Shown: positions 2,885 to 23,385 of the stretch, in pieces
How positions within the stretch are numbered: the stretch's first letter is position 1
Layout: every line of letters starts with the position of its first letter
Made by a program: the position numbers and the translations under genes
Assembly (NCBI RefSeq): GCF_002979865.1
Contig: NZ_PCPZ01000002.1
Span: 434,001-498,000 of the forward strand
DNA length: 64,000 nucleotides
Direction: 5' to 3'
DNA from: Arthrobacter sp. MYb214
GTDB lineage: Bacteria; Actinomycetota; Actinomycetes; Actinomycetales; Micrococcaceae
The notes under the pieces: generated by a model
What the model was told of the DNA's origin: nothing
The model's database searches: none
The model's input: the letters and a program-made list of their open reading frames with translations, nothing else

Positions 2885-2959
<75 letters not shown>

Positions 2960-2964
2960 AAAAT

Positions 2965-3012
2965 AGGCCCCTATAAAACCTAGGCTGACTAGGTGATATA
3001 GGGGCCTTTTCT
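2965..3012 (+). terminator. Terminator supplied by the element downstream of the tRNA
   Basis: The arms AGGCCCCTATA (2965-2975) and TATAGGGGCCT (2997-3007) pair perfectly and are followed by a T run; the loop contains a second small CCTAGG...CTAGG pairing. It lies just inside the element, so after integration it ends tRNA transcription, and it can also act on the integrase transcript from the other side. Confidence 0.8.
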
Positions 3013-3098
3013 ATGCCCGAAAAATAATACTGGACAGTATGGCACTCTTATGCGGGTCATTCAGTTCGGATAAGTTTTGTTCGTGATGGTAATTTTTT

Positions 3099-3106
3099 GG
3101 TAAGTC
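3099..3106 (+). repeat. GGTAAGTC motif, left end of element (candidate integrase arm site)
   Basis: The octamer GGTAAGTC lies 140 bp inside the left attachment site and occurs twice near the right end (8837-8844 and 8849-8856). Paired short repeats near both ends are the usual pattern of arm-type integrase sites. No binding data exist, so this is inference. Confidence 0.35.
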
Positions 3107-3116
3107 TGGAGCATCC

Positions 3117-4445
3117 TTATCCCAAGAGAGTGGACAATTCCGCGTCCAGTCGCTTGGCGCTATCCGCTAGATCATCGGCGAATAGATCGCCGTAAACATC
3201 CAGCGTCATGGTTGCCGACTTGTGCCCAGCAATGCGCTGCACGACCTTGATATTCGCCCCCGCCCTAATTGCCAGCGATACGGCTGTATGCCGCAGGTTG
3301 TGGAACGTGGGAGGGATGAAGTCACTATCACCAAGGGCTAGCGTCATAGCTCCGTATTCTTCCAGCCCCAGAGCGGCCCACACAGGCCGCGTAACGGCCC
3401 CGGTAGCCTCCAGCCCCTCGGTCTCCTGAAAAGCTCTTACAGCGGCTTGTGTGCGCTCGCCGTACCGGCCGAGCTGCACCGCATTGCCGTTGCTTGTCTC
3501 GCGCTTAGTCTCACCCTTGACACCTAGGCGGCGCTGCACAGCGCCCACGGCGCTGGCTGCTGCCTTGGCTGCCGGGTCATAGTGCCGCTCGTGAAAGTTG
3601 GAACTGTTCAGTTGCCCACCGCGCGGCGAGCGGAATACTAGATCCTCTGGTCCGGCCTCCAGTGTGAGCGCTTCCAGCTCCGTGGCTATCGTTGCCGGTA
3701 TCGGTACGGTGCGCTCCTCATGGTTCTTGGCTACGCTCGCCTCCACTAGCGCAGTCGGTATCTCGCCGTAGTCCAAGTGCTTTCGGCGCAGCGTTGTAAC
3801 CTCGCTCCAGCGCAGCCCGGTCAATCCTGTCAGAAGCACAAGCAAGCGATAGTCTCTGCTGGCATCAGCCACACGGATTAGCTGGGCCATGGTGAGCCGC
3901 ACTTGTGAGCGTGTCGGCTTAGGTGTCGGCGTGGCCATGACGCGCCCGGCGCGGTTGCGTGCTGGGTTCTTCCCTAACAGCCCCTCGGTAACGGCATAGT
4001 CAAACATCCGTGAGAACTGTTTCAGCGCCTTGGACTTGGCGCTCGCGCTCGCAGGGCTACCGTTGGCCATGCTCATGGCCTCCAGCCAGTCGGTAACATC
4101 GCCGTGCTTGATACTCGCAATGGGGCGATACTCCCAATGGGGCTTGATCTGGTTGCGGTAGATCTTTTCGTAAGTCTCCTTGGTGGATAGCGTGCAGCCT
4201 CGTCGCCCTGTCGCGCCATTGGCGGCAATGACCTTGAGCCAGCGGCTGTGCAACGCCGCTACGGTAATTCCCTTGGCGTTGTTCGGGTCTACATAGCTGC
4301 CGTCTCGGGTGGCTGCTGCTACCTCGGTTAGGTGGGCCTCGGCCTCGCGCTTGAGCTTGAACACTCGGCGCTTTCGCTTGCCCTCGGGCGTGTAGTAGTC
4401 GGCAATGTATCCATTGCCGTTCGGATTCTTGACTACTGCTGCCAT
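3117..4445 (-). CDS. int: Tyrosine-family integrase with inserted peptidoglycan-binding-like domain
   Basis: A 442-residue site-specific tyrosine recombinase for element insertion and excision at the tRNA. Residues 1-50 look like an arm-binding domain, about 60-165 is the SAM-like core-binding domain, and the catalytic domain starts near 180. The catalytic residues visible are R212 (GLRWSEV), K240 (AKNHEER), H382 and R385 (HNLRHT), H408 (GHKS) and nucleophile Y418 (LDVYGDL). Between the beta-strand region (SSNFHERHYDP, to 291) and FHNLRHT there is an extra segment of about 65 residues (299-361: AVQRRLGV ... GRYGERTQAAVRAFQ ... GAVTRPVWAALG) that reads as a PG_binding_1-type repeat. Since all catalytic residues are kept, the enzyme is probably active. 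The gene's stop lies near the left attachment site. Confidence 0.95.
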   Translation of the reverse strand: MAAVVKNPNGNGYIADYYTPEGKRKRRVFKLKREAEAHLTEVAAATRDGSYVDPNNAKGITVAALHSRWLKVIAANGATGRRGCTLSTKETYEKIYRNQIKPHWEYRPIASIKHGDVTDWLEAMSMANGSPASASAKSKALKQFSRMFDYAVTEGLLGKNPARNRAGRVMATPTPKPTRSQVRLTMAQLIRVADASRDYRLLVLLTGLTGLRWSEVTTLRRKHLDYGEIPTALVEASVAKNHEERTVPIPATIATELEALTLEAGPEDLVFRSPRGGQLNSSNFHERHYDPAAKAAASAVGAVQRRLGVKGETKRETSNGNAVQLGRYGERTQAAVRAFQETEGLEATGAVTRPVWAALGLEEYGAMTLALGDSDFIPPTFHNLRHTAVSLAIRAGANIKVVQRIAGHKSATMTLDVYGDLFADDLADSAKRLDAELSTLLG

Positions 4446-4496
4446 GGCCCGGCCCTCCTGTTAGGTCTGTACTGGCTGAACGCCGCTAGGCGTGCA

Positions 4497-5165
4497 TTAA
4501 TTCCCGTGCAGCGTCTTGGACGTTGCGGACTCTAGAACTGCCTTGACTGTGGAGGCGTACCACTTGCCGCCGTTGGCGGTTGGCACCTCGCGTTCAGTAA
4601 GTGCCTGGGCGATGCCGCGTAGGCTCTTGCCCTCGGCCTTGAGTGCATGGATAAGCTCGCGAGTCTCGGTTGGCAGTTCGGATGAACGGCCCATGTGCTT
4701 GCCCTCGGTGGCCTTGATTTTTGCCATGCCCTCGCGGGTGCGCTCGCCAATACGCTTGCGCTCCATCTCCGCGACTGCCGCCGTGATCTGCGCAGTAAAC
4801 GCTCCAGTCGTGGAACTGGTATCTATTCCTAGGTCAAGGGATACCAAGGCCCACCGCTGGCGGCTTGCAGTCTCCAGCATGGCGGCGAAGTCGGCAACGT
4901 TACGGGATAGCCTGTCTAGCTTGGCGACGGCGAGCGCGTCGGCTCGTCCTGCCTTGAGGTCGGCCAATGCCTCGGCTAGTACGGGCCTGTTCGCCAAGCT
5001 CTTGGCGCTGGCGGCGTTCTCTCGCCGTATGTCCAGTGTCCAGCCCTTGAGTGTCGCCTCGGCCTGCAAGCGCTCTACTTGCACCTCTGGGCCTATCTCC
5101 TGCTTGTCGGTGGATACGCGCACGTATCCGATGACCTTGAGCGGTTCCTCTGTGATCTGTTTCAT
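4497..5165 (-). CDS. Serine recombinase (resolvase/invertase family)
   Basis: A 222-residue small serine recombinase. The N-terminal catalytic domain shows GYVRVSTDKQ with nucleophile S18 and the arginine cluster KLDRLSRN (R85, R88). The central region EMERKRIGERTREGM matches the E-helix of resolvases. The C-terminal part (about 172-215) is a helix-turn-helix DNA-binding domain (KAEGKSLRGIAQALTEREV). The length fits Tn3-type resolvases and invertases. It is unusual beside a complete tyrosine integrase in so small an element; possible jobs are multimer resolution, inversion or gene regulation. A 28-bp palindrome lies just upstream of its start. No clear ribosome binding site precedes the ATG, so leaderless or near-leaderless translation is possible. 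Confidence 0.93.
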   Translation of the reverse strand: MKQITEEPLKVIGYVRVSTDKQEIGPEVQVERLQAEATLKGWTLDIRRENAASAKSLANRPVLAEALADLKAGRADALAVAKLDRLSRNVADFAAMLETASRQRWALVSLDLGIDTSSTTGAFTAQITAAVAEMERKRIGERTREGMAKIKATEGKHMGRSSELPTETRELIHALKAEGKSLRGIAQALTEREVPTANGGKWYASTVKAVLESATSKTLHGN

Positions 5166-5173
5166 AGTCTAAG

Positions 5174-5201
5174 TGTACATAAAGGGTTCCCTTTTTGTAC
5201 A
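5174..5201. promoter_or_regulatory. 28-bp near-perfect palindrome at the recombinase start
   Basis: The arms TGTACATAAAGGG (5174-5186) and CCCTTTTTGTACA (5189-5201) are complementary except at one position and are separated by TT. It begins 8 bp upstream of the recombinase start codon, so it should overlap the promoter. Likely an operator bound by the recombinase itself or by the excisionase-like protein, or a crossover site. Confidence 0.7.
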
Positions 5202-5313
5202 TACCTCAGTCGTTTTCGCTGGAATGTAGTGGGTGGGGAGGTACCCCCTTTACGCGCAGAAGCATTTCCCGGCGGTGATAGCGGCTCAAAAGTTGGCACA
5301 TTACAAAGCTTTG

Positions 5314-5328
5314 GTTGCATCATGCAAC
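5314..5328. promoter_or_regulatory. Small perfect palindrome in the 300-bp gap before the recombinase
   Basis: GTTGCA-TCA-TGCAAC is a perfect inverted repeat in the otherwise gene-free stretch 5202-5464. A second operator or recombination half-site is possible. Nothing else in this gap has coding character. Confidence 0.35.
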
Positions 5329-5464
5329 TACCTCTAAGGGGTGGGGTCTGGTGCCGCCGCTCCGAATTTGCGCAGTAAAGGCGTTCAGAAAAATTGGGCG
5401 GCATATCTCCAGAAGTTTTGGGCAGCGTCAAGGCCGGGGCCAACTAAGCCCCGGCCCTGCCGCG

Positions 5465-6277
5465 TTACTCGGTTCGGCTCCAGCCCTCTGGGTAAATGAC
5501 ATCCGCTTCTCGATTGACCGTTGGGAGCGTATAGGCAACAGCGGTCGCATACTCTTGAACGGTCAAGGTTCGATTAGGTGGCTTCATCTCCCAACCTGCT
5601 GGCGGCTCTCGCCGCCGCGCCGCAACCATGGCGCTATTCAGACTGTTGCTCACTTGCTGCATATGCCCCGGCCTGACGCATAGGGTATTGCGGCAAATGT
5701 GATCAATCACTAGAGCTGTGTCGCGTTCCAGCCCTGCTATGTTTTCCCACGCCCAAATGTGCGCACGCACATCCCGGTTCCCAATGTAGAAAAAGCCATA
5801 TTCAGCAGCCCAGTCCTTGCCGTTGGTCTTCACGCCGCCTGTCCAGTTCCAGCAACCTGTGACCGTATCGGCTTCTACGTTCTCCATGAAGCGTTCCAGC
5901 GGGTCGCGGCTCCGCTGCCGGTTGCGCTCTATTGCCGCCTCGCTGAGCGGCTCCAGTTCAGGTTCAAGTGCTGGACTCCATGGCCCGGTAACTCCCTGCT
6001 CCCAACGTGTGTGGCCATGGCTCTTGCAGAGCATGTACCCGACCGGCGACAACACGCGTTCAGCGTCACGGGTGCAGTCTGTAGCCTGGCACGTATTGGC
6101 CACGGTGCCCAGGGTCTCCACTCGCAACGAGTGGTAGGCGCACAGCGGCACGCCCTCCAGTAGGCCGACCGCTTCAACGGCGCAGCGCCATGCAGCACAG
6201 AGGCCGCGCTTTACGCCCTTGTTGCTCGCTGCCTTGAGCCTGCCGCTGAAGCTCGGCTGAGGTCTAGCTATTGTCAC
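5465..6277 (-). CDS. HNH endonuclease (HNH_3-like) with two N-terminal zinc modules
   Basis: A 270-residue protein. The N-terminus has two probable zinc modules of form C-x4-C ... C-x2-H (C27, C32, C46, H49 and C63, C68, C84, H87). A linker follows, then CWNWTGG (142-148) and the core motif D192-H193-I-C195-R-N197 ... C200 ... P-x-H205, as in HNH_3-type phage and homing endonucleases. The expected activity is metal-dependent DNA nicking or cleavage. The GTG start has GGAAG seven bases upstream and overlaps the preceding coiled-coil gene by 14 bp, so the two are translationally coupled. The same architecture recurs in the protein at 7015-7764. Confidence 0.85.
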   Translation of the reverse strand: MTIARPQPSFSGRLKAASNKGVKRGLCAAWRCAVEAVGLLEGVPLCAYHSLRVETLGTVANTCQATDCTRDAERVLSPVGYMLCKSHGHTRWEQGVTGPWSPALEPELEPLSEAAIERNRQRSRDPLERFMENVEADTVTGCWNWTGGVKTNGKDWAAEYGFFYIGNRDVRAHIWAWENIAGLERDTALVIDHICRNTLCVRPGHMQQVSNSLNSAMVAARRREPPAGWEMKPPNRTLTVQEYATAVAYTLPTVNREADVIYPEGWSRTE

Positions 6278-6899
6278 GGCTTGACTTCCATTCCCTCTCG
6301 AAGTCTTTGGTCACATCCCCAATCGCTGCCGCTATGGAACGCAAGGGGTAGACCCTTGCACCCTCGGGATGATTGACAATCACCTCCCTGTTAGGGGTAA
6401 GCCGCACGCCGTGGCGTTCGGCGCTCGGGTAATTGCCCGCGTAAACGGGGCCGCCGTTTAGCTCCACCTCCAGCGCTTCCCGCTGCTTGCTGTCAAGCTC
6501 CAGCTTGTCGGCAAAAGCGAACAGGATTGGCCTCAACGCTTCACGCACCTCGGCTTTCAAGCGTTCCATTTCAGGGCCAGTCATTAGTGCCGGGTGTGTG
6601 GCCTGCTGGATAAGTTGCAGATGTGCCGCCGCCTCGTTCAGAGCCTGCGCTGTTGCTTCATGATCGCGCTCGCGCTCGCCGTACAGTTCGCGGTACCCCT
6701 CAAGCTCCTGCCGCGCGTGAATGAGTTCCGTTCGTGCGCTTGGATCAGCCTTGGCCTTGGTCTCGAGTTCGCTGACGGCGGTCTCGGCCTTGGCCAGTTC
6801 CTCGCGTGCTTGGGTCTCGCGCTGTGCGGCGTTGGCCTCATCGTTGGCACATGCCGCGACAATCGCGGCTAGGGAATCGGTATTCATGGTGTCAGTCAT
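6264..6899 (-). CDS. Coiled-coil protein of unknown function
   Basis: A 211-residue acidic protein. Residues about 15-100 form a long Ala/Glu/Arg-rich helical region with heptad character (QREELAKAETAVSELETKAK; ELIHARQELEGYRELYGERERD), followed by a helical middle and a compact C-terminus (GVRLTPNREVIVNHPEGARVYPL). I recognise no family. An upstream in-frame start is possible, but AAGGAGG sits eight bases before the ATG at 6899, which fixes the start. It lies between two HNH genes and overlaps the next one, so a shared function with the HNH proteins is a reasonable inference, not shown. Confidence 0.75.
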   Translation of the reverse strand: MTDTMNTDSLAAIVAACANDEANAAQRETQAREELAKAETAVSELETKAKADPSARTELIHARQELEGYRELYGERERDHEATAQALNEAAAHLQLIQQATHPALMTGPEMERLKAEVREALRPILFAFADKLELDSKQREALEVELNGGPVYAGNYPSAERHGVRLTPNREVIVNHPEGARVYPLRSIAAAIGDVTKDFEREWKSSRDNS

Positions 6900-7014
6900 T
6901 CGTTGCCCCTCCTTGGGCGTGCTGGCCACAGGTTGCCGCCTGTGGCGCTAGTGTGTTCTCGGGCGTTGGTTGCCCGTATCCATGCCGCTAGGCGCTCAGA
7001 ATGAAGCGCAGCGC

Positions 7015-7764
7015 CTAAGCGCGGCGGTTCCTCCTGCGCGGCCCTGCGTGGCCGCTAGGCTCCTCCGGCATGGTTGGTATCGGTAGCCCGTATTCACGGG
7101 CGAACTGCTGCACACTCGGCGATTCAATCGCCTCGCGGTTGAACCAAGGGCCAGTGCCCTTGACGGTTAGCTCCACCTCGCCACGCCTCCACATGTTGCG
7201 CCGCGCTCGCCGGCGCCCGTGCAGGGTCTTGCTTACCGGCTGGAGGTGGCACGGGCTAGCGCAACCCGGGCCTACCTCGCACCCTGTCAAGTGGTCTAGT
7301 TGCTCGCGTTGCTTATGGCCGCCCATGAGTAACCCCCATGCCACACGGTGGGCCAGCCAAGTAGCATCGGCGGATAGGTAGGTGTACATCCATGGATAGC
7401 CGCTAGGGTTGGCACCCGCTGACCCCTCATAGACCCAGCACGTGCCTTGTACCGTAATCCCTGCCGCCAAGCGGCGGCGGTTCTCCTGTTCGACAAGCTT
7501 GGACTGTTCGGGGTCTCGGTGCTCGGTTAGGTGTAGGTATTCATGTTCTCGGCAGAGCCGCCGATACTTGACGTGATAGCCGCGCCGCCCTTGGCGGTCG
7601 GCTAAGTGGTTTGCACAGTCGGGATAATCGCAGCGCTGTGTATCGGCTTTATTGCGTAGCCACCATTGGTAATGAGCGCCGCACATCTGCCGGGTTTGGG
7701 CGGCCCTGCTGCACCCTGCGCGGGTACAGGCTCCGGCATTGATTCCAGTCGTATAAACCTCCAA
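7015..7764 (-). CDS. Second HNH endonuclease-like protein, same architecture
   Basis: A protein of up to 249 residues with two C-x4-C ... C-x2-H modules (C13, C18, C28, H31 and C45, C50, C71, H74), a CWVYEG motif near 109-114 and an HNH-like core (D157-H158 ... C162 ... C168 ... P171-C-H173). The order matches the HNH protein at 5465-6277, so the two are probably old paralogues or mosaic relatives. The start is unclear: the only canonical codon before the first cysteine is a TTG at 7764, but the strong GGAGG site lies just downstream of it, and the codon at a proper spacing from that site is ACG. The C-terminus is rich in Arg. Confidence 0.75.
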   Translation of the reverse strand: MEVYTTGINAGACTRAGCSRAAQTRQMCGAHYQWWLRNKADTQRCDYPDCANHLADRQGRRGYHVKYRRLCREHEYLHLTEHRDPEQSKLVEQENRRRLAAGITVQGTCWVYEGSAGANPSGYPWMYTYLSADATWLAHRVAWGLLMGGHKQREQLDHLTGCEVGPGCASPCHLQPVSKTLHGRRRARRNMWRRGEVELTVKGTGPWFNREAIESPSVQQFAREYGLPIPTMPEEPSGHAGPRRRNRRA

Positions 7765-7955
7765 AAAATGGGGTCATAGGGATGTCATAAAAAAATCCTC
7801 TTAGAACGGGTTCGGGAATAGGCTGCTCTCAAATTTCCCGCCAATACTGGGGAGTTTTCAGGCGCTGACTATGAGAAGGTGCCAGCAATCGGTATTAGGT
7901 AAGCGGTACCATTTCGGCTCGGTTCGACAGCCCTTGGCAACGGCCCTAGCGTGCC

Positions 7956-8168
7956 CTATGCGCGCTGCTGTGAAGCCCACCTGTCAACCTCGGTTCGGTT
8001 GTATCGGCATTGGTGCCCGAACTTGTAGAACGGGATACAGGCGCGGCCCTCGGCGCTGGCCAGCCAGCGCACCGAGATGTTCAAATACTCGGCGCATTCA
8101 GGCCGGGTCATCCAAACAGCATCGTTGGCAATTGATCGGCCCTCATAGGCCGTATTCGCAATTGTCAT
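7956..8168 (-). CDS. Excisionase-like winged-helix DNA-binding protein
   Basis: A 70-residue protein with a MerR/HTH_17-like motif (MTRPECAEYLNISVRWLASAEG ... IPFYKFGHQCRYNRTEVDRWA). The pattern of a helix pair followed by a basic F-G-x-x-x-R-Y wing and a D-x-W ending is typical of excisionases and small regulators of integrative elements. AAAGGA precedes the ATG with a seven-base spacer. It probably directs integrase toward excision and may bind the palindromes upstream of the recombinase. It is the first gene of the minus-strand series. Confidence 0.8.
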   Translation of the reverse strand: MTIANTAYEGRSIANDAVWMTRPECAEYLNISVRWLASAEGRACIPFYKFGHQCRYNRTEVDRWASQQRA

Positions 8169-8374
8169 TCATCCATCCTTTCAATTAGAAATCGGGCAGC
8201 ATAAAGTAATAGCCGTTTTCTTTCTAATTGTTTTCCCGATAAGTAGGGCCGGGGTCATAGCTCTAGTTATCGGGAATAAGGATGGCACCCTCCTGCGCGC
8301 GAAAAGCACCCAACGCGCAGCGACATCCATTTGGCGTTACCACCCTGCATGGCAGATTGCCCAGATACGCAGGG

Positions 8375-8521
8375 ATGACAACACAAGAAATAACATTAGC
8401 ACCCGTGGACTTGTTTGTCAAGTGCCAATGTGGTATCGCGCGCGAAATAAAATGTCCGGACCCTATTAATTCAGCGCCAACAGGCGCATACTGGGCGGCA
8501 TGGAACCTGAATATCTCGTAA
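8375..8521 (+). CDS. Possible small protein of 48 residues
   Basis: A short plus-strand frame (MTTQEITLAP...) with a CQC...C cysteine cluster. It overlaps the start of the next plus-strand frame by 22 bp, as in coupled genes. No good ribosome binding site is present (AGGG abuts the ATG). It also conflicts with an ATG-less frame on the minus strand (8263-8586). Support is weak. Confidence 0.2.
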   Translation: MTTQEITLAPVDLFVKCQCGIAREIKCPDPINSAPTGAYWAAWNLNIS

Positions 8522-8835
8522 CAGTGCTGGAGCTTGACGGCCTGCTCATAGGCCGCAGTCAGTCCGGGCAATTGGTTTTCTTTCAAGACTCCGCCAAGGT
8601 GTCCGATACCCGCCTCGTGGAGGTGCTTGGCACGCTTGGCATGGAAGACTTCGACGTAGACCCATTGGAGGGTACAGGCTCGGCGCTGGCTGGATACCTC
8701 CAGCCGTGCGCCCCATACTCCGACCTTGCCAAGGCAGTAGACTTAGCGCTCCGTCTCGGCTCCGCAGCTCCAGACGTGCAGCCAGAGGTAACCGGCAATG
8801 ACTTCACGGCTTTGGATTGGGCACCGCCGAGCTAG
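8500..8835 (+). CDS. Small hypothetical protein at the right end of the element
   Basis: A 111-residue acidic protein beginning MEPEYLVTVLELDGLLIG. It has regular secondary-structure alternation (strand-rich start, helix PYSDLAKAVDLALRLGSAA) and no low complexity, and its codon choice resembles real genes, but I recognise no family and the ribosome binding site is poor (GGGCGGC directly before the ATG). It is the only plausible gene of the element on the plus strand and ends about 60 bp from the right attachment site, the place where cargo genes are often found. Confidence 0.45.
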   Translation: MEPEYLVTVLELDGLLIGRSQSGQLVFFQDSAKVSDTRLVEVLGTLGMEDFDVDPLEGTGSALAGYLQPCAPYSDLAKAVDLALRLGSAAPDVQPEVTGNDFTALDWAPPS

Positions 8836-8836
8836 T

Positions 8837-8856
8837 GGTAAGTCCTCGGTAAGTCA
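8837..8856 (+). repeat. Two GGTAAGTC motifs, right end of element
   Basis: Two copies of the octamer, starting at 8837 and 8849 (12 bp apart), lie 40-60 bp inside the right attachment site and match the single copy at 3099-3106. Candidate integrase arm sites. Confidence 0.35.
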
Positions 8857-8896
8857 TGGCTGATATTTCCGCATAAACACGGCGTTATAAGTGGGT

Positions 8897-8939
8897 CTCA
8901 TAATCCCTTGGTCATGGGTTCAAGTCCCATACTCCCTAC
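8897..8939 (+). repeat. Right attachment site (43-bp repeat)
   Basis: A perfect copy of 2917-2959 in the same orientation. It is a tRNA 3' fragment without a 5' half, so it is not a functional tRNA. Confidence 0.95.
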
Positions 8940-8947
8940 CAAACAAG

Positions 8948-21759: not shown

Positions 21760-23385
21760 ATGAACCAGCTCAGCATCCTGGCCCAGGCCGCGGGAGAGTC
21801 GACCCAGGTCGGCAACCCCTTGGTCAATATCGCCATCTTCCTGGCCTTCGTGGGCGTCACCATGGTGATCGTGCTCCGCGCCTCCAAGAACAACAAGACC
21901 GCTGCGGATTACTATGCAGGCGGCCGTTCCTTCACGGGAACGCAGAACGGCACCGCAATTGCCGGTGACTACCTCTCGGCAGCCTCCTTCCTGGGCATCG
22001 TTGGCGCTATCGCCATCCAGGGCTACGACGGCTTCCTCTACTCGATCGGCTTCCTGGTTGCTTGGCTGGTTGCCTTGCTGCTGGTTGCGGAGCTGCTGCG
22101 CAACACCGGCAAATTCACCATGGCCGATGTGCTGTCCTTCCGGCTCAAGCAGCGTCCGGTGCGCATCGCCGCGGCCATCTCCACGCTGGCAGTGTGCGTC
22201 TTCTACCTGCTGGCGCAGATGGCTGGCGCCGGCGCGCTGGTTTCCCTGTTGCTGGGTATTGACGAGAAGCTGGGACAGTCGCTGGTGATCGTTATCGTTG
22301 GCGCATTGATGATCCTCTATGTGCTGGTTGGCGGCATGAAGGGCACCACCTGGGTGCAGATCATCAAGGCCTGCCTGCTGATCGCCGGCGCGCTGATCAT
22401 GACCGTGTGGACGCTGGCCATGTTCGGCTTCAACTTCTCCGACCTGCTGGGCAAGGCAGCTGAAGTAGCCGGCAACCCCGAGATCCTGAATCCGGGCATG
22501 AAGTACGGTGTTTCTGAAACTGCCAAGCTGGACTTCATCTCGCTGGCCCTGGCCTTGGTGCTTGGCACCGCCGGCCTGCCGCACGTGCTGATGCGCTTCT
22601 ACACCGTTCCTACCGCGAAGGAAGCCCGCAAGTCCGTCGTCTGGGCTATCTGGCTGATCGGCGCCTTCTACCTGTTCACCCTGGTGCTGGGCTTCGGCGC
22701 CGGTGCACTGATTGGCCCGGATCGAATCCAGGCGGCTCCAGGCGGCGTGAACTCTGCGGCACCGCTGCTGGCCTACGAATTGGGCGGCACAGTGCTGCTG
22801 GGCCTGATCTCTGCAGTGGCCTTCGCAACCATCCTTGCTGTAGTGGCGGGCTTGACCATCACCGCGGCGGCATCCTTCGCCCATGACGTGTACGCGTCGG
22901 TGATTGCCAAGGGCAAGTCGACTCCAGAGAAGGAAATGAAGATTGCCCGCCGCACGGTCTTGGTTATCGGAGTCTTCGCTATCGCTGGCGGCATCGGTGC
23001 CCAGGGGCAGAACGTGGCCTTCCTGGTGGCATTGGCCTTCGCGGTGGCCGCTTCGGCTAACCTGCCAACCATCTTGTACTCGCTGTTCTGGAAGGGCTTC
23101 AAGACCCGCGGCGCAGTGTGGTCCATGTACGGCGGCCTGGGTTCGGCTTTGCTGCTGATCATCTTCTCGCCAGTGTTCTCGGGCTCGGAGACCGCAATGA
23201 TCCCAAGCATCGATATGGTGATCTTCCCGCTGGCTAACCCGGGTATCGTCTCCATTCCGCTGGCCTTCTTCCTAGGCTGGCTGGGCTCGGTTACCGACAA
23301 ACGTGTCGAGGACATTACCAAGCAGGCGGAAATGGAAGTTCGTTCGCTGACCGGTGTCGGTGCCGAGAAGGCAGTCGACCACTAA
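21760..23385 (+). CDS. actP: Cation:acetate symporter (ActP/MctC-like)
   Basis: A 541-residue SSS-family protein with about 13 helices. It has the acetate-symporter start KTAADYYAGGRSFTGTQNGTAIAGDYLSAASFLG and LVLGTAGLPHVLMRFYTVPTAKEARKS, very like ActP of proteobacteria and MctC of corynebacteria. Expected substrates are acetate, propionate or pyruvate, driven by sodium or protons. It directly follows the DUF485 gene and faces the LytS/LytTR genes, so induction by that pair is likely. A perfect 18-bp stem terminator follows. Confidence 0.93.
   Translation: MNQLSILAQAAGESTQVGNPLVNIAIFLAFVGVTMVIVLRASKNNKTAADYYAGGRSFTGTQNGTAIAGDYLSAASFLGIVGAIAIQGYDGFLYSIGFLVAWLVALLLVAELLRNTGKFTMADVLSFRLKQRPVRIAAAISTLAVCVFYLLAQMAGAGALVSLLLGIDEKLGQSLVIVIVGALMILYVLVGGMKGTTWVQIIKACLLIAGALIMTVWTLAMFGFNFSDLLGKAAEVAGNPEILNPGMKYGVSETAKLDFISLALALVLGTAGLPHVLMRFYTVPTAKEARKSVVWAIWLIGAFYLFTLVLGFGAGALIGPDRIQAAPGGVNSAAPLLAYELGGTVLLGLISAVAFATILAVVAGLTITAAASFAHDVYASVIAKGKSTPEKEMKIARRTVLVIGVFAIAGGIGAQGQNVAFLVALAFAVAASANLPTILYSLFWKGFKTRGAVWSMYGGLGSALLLIIFSPVFSGSETAMIPSIDMVIFPLANPGIVSIPLAFFLGWLGSVTDKRVEDITKQAEMEVRSLTGVGAEKAVDH

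Follow-up and report, generated by a model that had tools for sequence, protein, structure and literature searches.

A peptidoglycan-binding-type domain inserted ahead of the HxxR motif in tyrosine integrases of Arthrobacter and related actinobacteria

Background

Tyrosine recombinases are usually described, in sections of PMC8138268, as being made of arm-binding, core-binding and catalytic parts together with short insertions. Some of these insertions matter for function, as portions of two papers report for the I2 segment of integron integrases (PMC4792948) and for the beta-hairpin of Tn916-type integrases (PMC5871717), and in both cases the insertion is of modest extent: I2 has about 20 residues, and the hairpin of the Tn916/Tn1549 integrase follows the second strand of the catalytic domain and precedes the third (a section of PMC8138268). 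The integrase described here differs from these in carrying a whole known domain elsewhere in the catalytic domain, after the helix of residues 281-297 and just before the HxxR motif, where Tn1549 Int and lambda Int, both solved relatives in PF00589, have no such domain.

The inserted domain is of the PG_binding_1 type, which is otherwise found in proteins such as SleB (N-terminal domain, 6tci) and, as a PG-binding-like domain, at the C terminus of the protease CtpB, where it is the dimerization domain according to part of PMC3808539. The copy described here is instead an insertion in a recombinase that has no secretion-like hydrophobic start, and it has lost both aspartates of the peptidoglycan-binding motifs. 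A search of open-licence papers returned no description of a PG-binding domain inside a tyrosine integrase, and a text find for the word peptidoglycan in the tyrosine recombinase classification PMC8138268 gave nothing. Both Pfam families are named in a portion of PMC3581485, but in different proteins. We analyzed a stretch of 64,000 nucleotides from Arthrobacter sp. MYb214, referred to below as the window.

Results

The integrase and its inserted domain

The window integrase matched PF00589 (Phage_integrase) at an E value of 5.5e-17 in a Pfam scan and, within the same protein, PF01471 (PG_binding_1), with an E value of 4.5e-9 and a score of 36.8 bits where the gathering threshold is 23. A sequence-only reading of the locus had proposed a PG_binding_1-like segment at residues 299-361 (3360-3560), and the profile search bears this out; those positions correspond to the Pfam core, and the whole inserted segment is somewhat longer (Table 1). 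A PHROG endolysin family also matched residues 282-370 (7.9e-7), the NCBIfam SleB model matched the same stretch as the insert below its cutoff (1.3e-4), and a profile of four inserts searched against the PDB retrieved cell-wall proteins, the best being 5tv7 (7.4e-5).

Table 1. Features of the integrative element and its integrase, in window coordinates
Feature	Position	Strand	Basis
tRNA-Met (cat), integration target	2885..2959	+	ARAGORN
Attachment-site repeat, tRNA side, 51 nt	2913..2963	+	49/51 identical to far copy
Tyrosine integrase with inserted PG-binding-type domain, 442 aa	3117..4445	-	PF00589 and PF01471 matches, predicted model
HxxR motif, aa 382-385, just past insert	3291..3302	-	sequence
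Inserted segment, aa ~297-372, ~76 aa	3330..3557	-	gap in 42 insert-less relatives; VIA-align on insert model
PF01471 core of insert, aa 299-359	3369..3551	-	Pfam
Integrase helix, aa 281-297	3555..3605	-	secondary structure of predicted model
Serine resolvase/invertase	4497..5165	-	PF00239 1.4e-36; phrog_125
HNH endonuclease-like protein	5465..6277	-	PF13392 7.9e-8; phrog_1872 1.4e-21
221-aa ORF	6264..6929	-	weak coiled-coil-type/tape-measure-type matches; phrog_10613 9.8e-4
Second HNH-like protein	7015..7764	-	phrog_826 1.4e-13; without Pfam HNH match
HTH_17 protein, excisionase-like	7956..8168	-	PF12728 29.1 bits, cutoff 27; phrog_66 2.7e-7
Attachment-site repeat, far side	8893..8943	+	repeat match and uninterrupted site in relatives

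When aligned with insert-less relatives, the native integrase sequence breaks off near residue 296 and restarts near residue 373. In the insert-less integrase L006, DPDFPRPTFHDLRH begins within a few residues of the end of KRHYSPAIARL; in the window integrase about 76 residues stand between ERHYDPAAKAA and DSDFIPPTFHNLRH, and these flanks align with those of L006. Over the columns of window residues 293-378, the 42 insert-less rows (25 from chromosomes of the family and 17 viral) hold 7-29 residues and the 11 insert-bearing rows 72-97. All six catalytic residues are present in the window integrase (R212, K240, H382, R385, H408 and Y418), so that the earlier placement of the insert before HxxR in an otherwise complete active site agrees with both the predicted model and the residue check.

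The predicted model of the integrase has a mean pLDDT of 91.4, with blocks of the insert at 88-97. The protein as a whole shows the recombinase fold and the insert a helical PG-binding fold rather than an ordinary loop of the recombinase, and the helix of residues 281-297 leads almost straight into helix 299-307, the first of the insert. A Foldseek search with a model of the insert alone gave no match at E <= 0.001; the fold assignment draws on the sequence profiles and on a second look with VIA-align, in which the top 12 rows were all PG-binding or PG-binding-like. A PG-binding-type domain is thus inserted in the loop between helix 281-297 and the HxxR helix of the integrase.

Distribution among relatives

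We found 14 distinct integrase sequences, one of them frame-broken, with the insert at the identical point, all from actinobacteria of the same order. The six catalytic residues were complete in all 11 insert-bearing rows, and the Pfam PG_binding_1 cutoff was passed by seven of the ten insert-bearing integrases scanned, the exceptions being L072, L074 and the L032 piece. Counts from the genome samples are lower bounds because up to 12 candidates were scored per genome, and the order membership of sampled genomes is that assigned by the search tool. In the family sample, at least 16 of 395 genomes matched the insert profile at E <= 0.001, at full length only in the window and in G038, whose match coincides in contig and coordinates with L072 from Arthrobacter mobilis. 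Scanning the genome collection with a pattern returned L072 and two further Arthrobacter loci (L073 and L074). Arthrobacter sp. StoSoilB13 has a plasmid copy of the insert-bearing integrase (L032, 2656-4312) that is frame-broken into two overlapping pieces, through either decay or a sequencing error.

At least 18 of 396 genomes in the order sample, the window counted, matched at E <= 1e-9. Eleven of the other 17 matches span most of the profile, and the ten of these that were read (L127-L135 and L136; G1113 was left out) are all integrases, nine of them distinct, in which the insert occupies the same position. Five of the six partial matches were read (L144-L148; G1123 was left out) and hold two to three ordinary PG-binding units, with an NlpC/P60-type end recognized by eye. 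The class sample of 394 genomes returned only the window and G794, and in the phylum sample at least 154 of 396 genomes matched a three-insert profile at E <= 0.001, the whole profile being covered by the window alone among the matches listed. The position of the domain is therefore unusual, as had been said from the sequence, but the arrangement recurs in relatives and is not a lone oddity.

Origin of the insertion

A quick tree, built without the insert columns and rooted at the midpoint, placed ten insert-bearing rows and 11 rows from the window's family that lack the insert in one half and a further insert-bearing integrase, L128, in the other. The insert-bearing integrases lie on at least two separated branches, and presence and absence of the insert alternate on the tree. 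A single clade of all insert-bearing integrases was rejected (p-AU 6e-35); the same test without L128 was borderline (p 0.038), for a group that was named after the tree had been seen. The pattern fits a history in which the domain was gained and lost and, on at least one occasion, transferred or captured anew. The L128 insert taken with its flanks scored 73.9 bits in its best domain, while ordinary PG-binding domains reached no more than 44.4; with the flanks trimmed it scored 50.0 bits against up to 54.6. Second capture of the domain by the L128 lineage and its receipt by transfer may both be reconciled with these profile tests.

Two other origins were considered and rejected. At third codon positions of the window gene, GC stands at 68.5% within the insert and 69.7% elsewhere, so nothing marks the insert as a recent foreign capture. 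A phage origin was set aside after the phage and viral scans yielded no insert-bearing integrase among the matches listed. The whole integrase had relatives in 71 phage records, and among the best 40 the spans covering most of the query were, judged from their coordinates, too short to hold the insert; the same was true of the best 20 of 145 and the best 15 of 323 records when two other insert-bearing integrases were the queries. The insert alone matched 17 phage records, none of which covered 80% of it. Forty of 41 viral-contig loci were read; in 39 the stretch that takes up 99 residues in the window integrase holds 20-41, and one stops before the loop. Further viral scans likewise gave no integrase with the insert.

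The integrative element

The integrase adjoins the tRNA at one end of an element of 5,980 bp that lies between the direct repeats at tRNA-Met (window 2913-8943; Table 1). A 22-nt core of the repeats has two exact occurrences, with none expected in shuffles, and an uninterrupted site is present in nine of the 17 further genomes compared from the genus, the remaining eight matching the tRNA part only. Direct repeats from a tRNA end that enclose an integrase gene, together with an uninterrupted site in relatives, identify this as a tRNA-targeting integrative element. The predicted cleavage and exchange of strands at the att sites by the integrase is indirectly supported by the bounded element and the uninterrupted site. 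No capsid or portal match was found in the element, and the only tape-measure match is a single weak one (9.8e-4), in the 221-aa ORF, which has no Pfam family above its cutoff. A defence-system library gave no match for seven proteins.

Other integrases that carry a PG-binding domain also sit in small elements bounded by repeats or end near a tRNA. In L140 (2846-10476), 50-nt repeats 7.6 kb apart at tRNA-Met enclose resolvase, HNH-like and HTH_17-type genes; in L138 (1651-10422), a pair of 45-nt repeats at tRNA-Ser is separated by 8.7 kb; and the integrase of L139 (1441-3129) ends 20 bases from tRNA-Arg. HNH relatives occur near the integrases of L143, L137 and L142, and an HTH_17-type small protein is near the integrase in eight of ten neighbourhoods compared, as it is in the window.

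Three further observations were made in the same genome. An inverted repeat with 22-nt arms (86% complementary) and a terminator-like form lies at 2962-3010, between the tRNA and the 3' end of the integrase gene. A 93-aa integrase remnant at another place in the genome (L002; G000:C15:208674-208865) shares 58% identity with the window integrase over residues 371-434 of the latter. Outside the element, window positions 21806-23295 are 74.6% identical to MT835675.1, an unannotated phage record from human faecal samples.

Motif aspartates

The last 38 residues of the 14 inserts were aligned by hand and compared with 43 ordinary units, which came from 32 of 37 actinobacterial loci found by insert-based searches, using a pattern that left both aspartate positions free. 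The aspartate that opens PG-binding motif 1 is present in none of the 14 inserts, which are related and so not independent, against 77% of the ordinary units, and the one that opens motif 2 in none against 65%. A core glutamine and a final leucine are retained in all 14 inserts and a threonine in 13. Portions of PMC12331253 report that changing these two aspartates in Bacillus cereus SleB disturbed its localisation, the variants being partly misfolded. Since both aspartates are gone from every insert and the window protein lacks a secretion-like start, binding of the insert to peptidoglycan or the wall is unlikely, and the suggestion in the sequence-only reading of a partner at the host surface or cell wall finds no backing.

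Discussion

We put at about even the chance that the insert has given up peptidoglycan binding and now serves, in the cytoplasm, as a contact or scaffold module between proteins of the recombination complex. The insert would prolong the integrase helix beside the active site and would most likely make contacts within the complex that link integrase subunits to one another or to an accessory factor, for which the excisionase-like HTH_17 protein of the element is a candidate. Such contacts would help to set the assembly or the direction of recombination. In the predicted model the domain sits where the active site or subunit contacts could be influenced, and the dimerizing PG-binding-like domain of CtpB is a precedent for a contact role. 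The integron I2 segment and the Tn1549 hairpin indicate, in the portions of PMC4792948 and PMC5871717 concerned, that insertions can tune tyrosine recombinases. The high dN of the insert, described below, counts against a contact role. So does the nesting of insert-less relatives among insert-bearing ones, as it implies that such integrases manage without the insert. HTH_17 neighbours are common partners of integrases generally, so the presence of one near the integrase proves nothing.

It is unlikely, in our estimation, that the insert instead contacts DNA next to the active site and widens or shapes the contact with the core site, in the manner of the beta-hairpin of Tn1549 Int. It does directly follow a helix of the catalytic domain in the model, and helices alpha-I and alpha-J and the hairpin of Tn1549 Int touch DNA (a section of PMC5871717). 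The inserts of the window, L072, L073 and L074 also share a basic pair in the hairpin loop, but this pair is not conserved in the wider set and the insert is nearly neutral overall (9 K+R, 8 D+E).

A tolerated passenger or spacer of little function is just as improbable, and here the rates of change cut both ways. The dN/dS of the insert is 0.087 for L073/L074, where dS is about 2 and near saturation, 0.30 and 0.36 in two closer pairs, in which the other integrase parts give 0.09-0.44, and 0.59 for L131/L135, in which they give 0.25 and 0.33. All computed pairs without saturation are thus below 1, which points to purifying selection, though by dN the insert is the fastest-changing part of the integrase in all four pairs compared. 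The high dN and a dN/dS of up to 0.59 are as expected of a weakly constrained part, and the variable length of the insert (72-97 residues over the same columns) and its alternating presence on the tree are in keeping with a passenger. Against this, core positions are retained down to 36-47% identity over the insert and flanks, the predicted fold is confident, and the insertion recurs at one position. A plain structural spacer, also raised from the sequence, is accordingly possible yet less likely, given the retained domain core and dN/dS below 1.

Least probable of all, and hardly credible, is a ligand sensor through which a cytoplasmic cell-wall precursor or recycled muropeptide would gate recombination by cell-wall state: peptidoglycan binding is known for the domain family and the insert adjoins the HxxR helix, a place from which a bound ligand could alter activity, but both motif aspartates are missing from all 14 inserts and a hairpin takes the place of the motif-1 loop in the model of the window protein.

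Conclusions

A whole domain of cell-wall enzymes is present inside the catalytic part of integrases in several families of one actinobacterial order. One might go further and speculate, with very little confidence, that a wall-recognition domain was captured by integrases, perhaps repeatedly at the same loop, and now acts as a control port at which a partner or a cytoplasmic wall metabolite toggles the enzyme from integration to excision or back, so that how readily small elements move would depend on the state of the host. The automatic label of peptidoglycan binding on such integrases can mislead. If the insert does control recombination, these proteins would be a natural case of a new input wired into an integrase with its catalytic residues intact.
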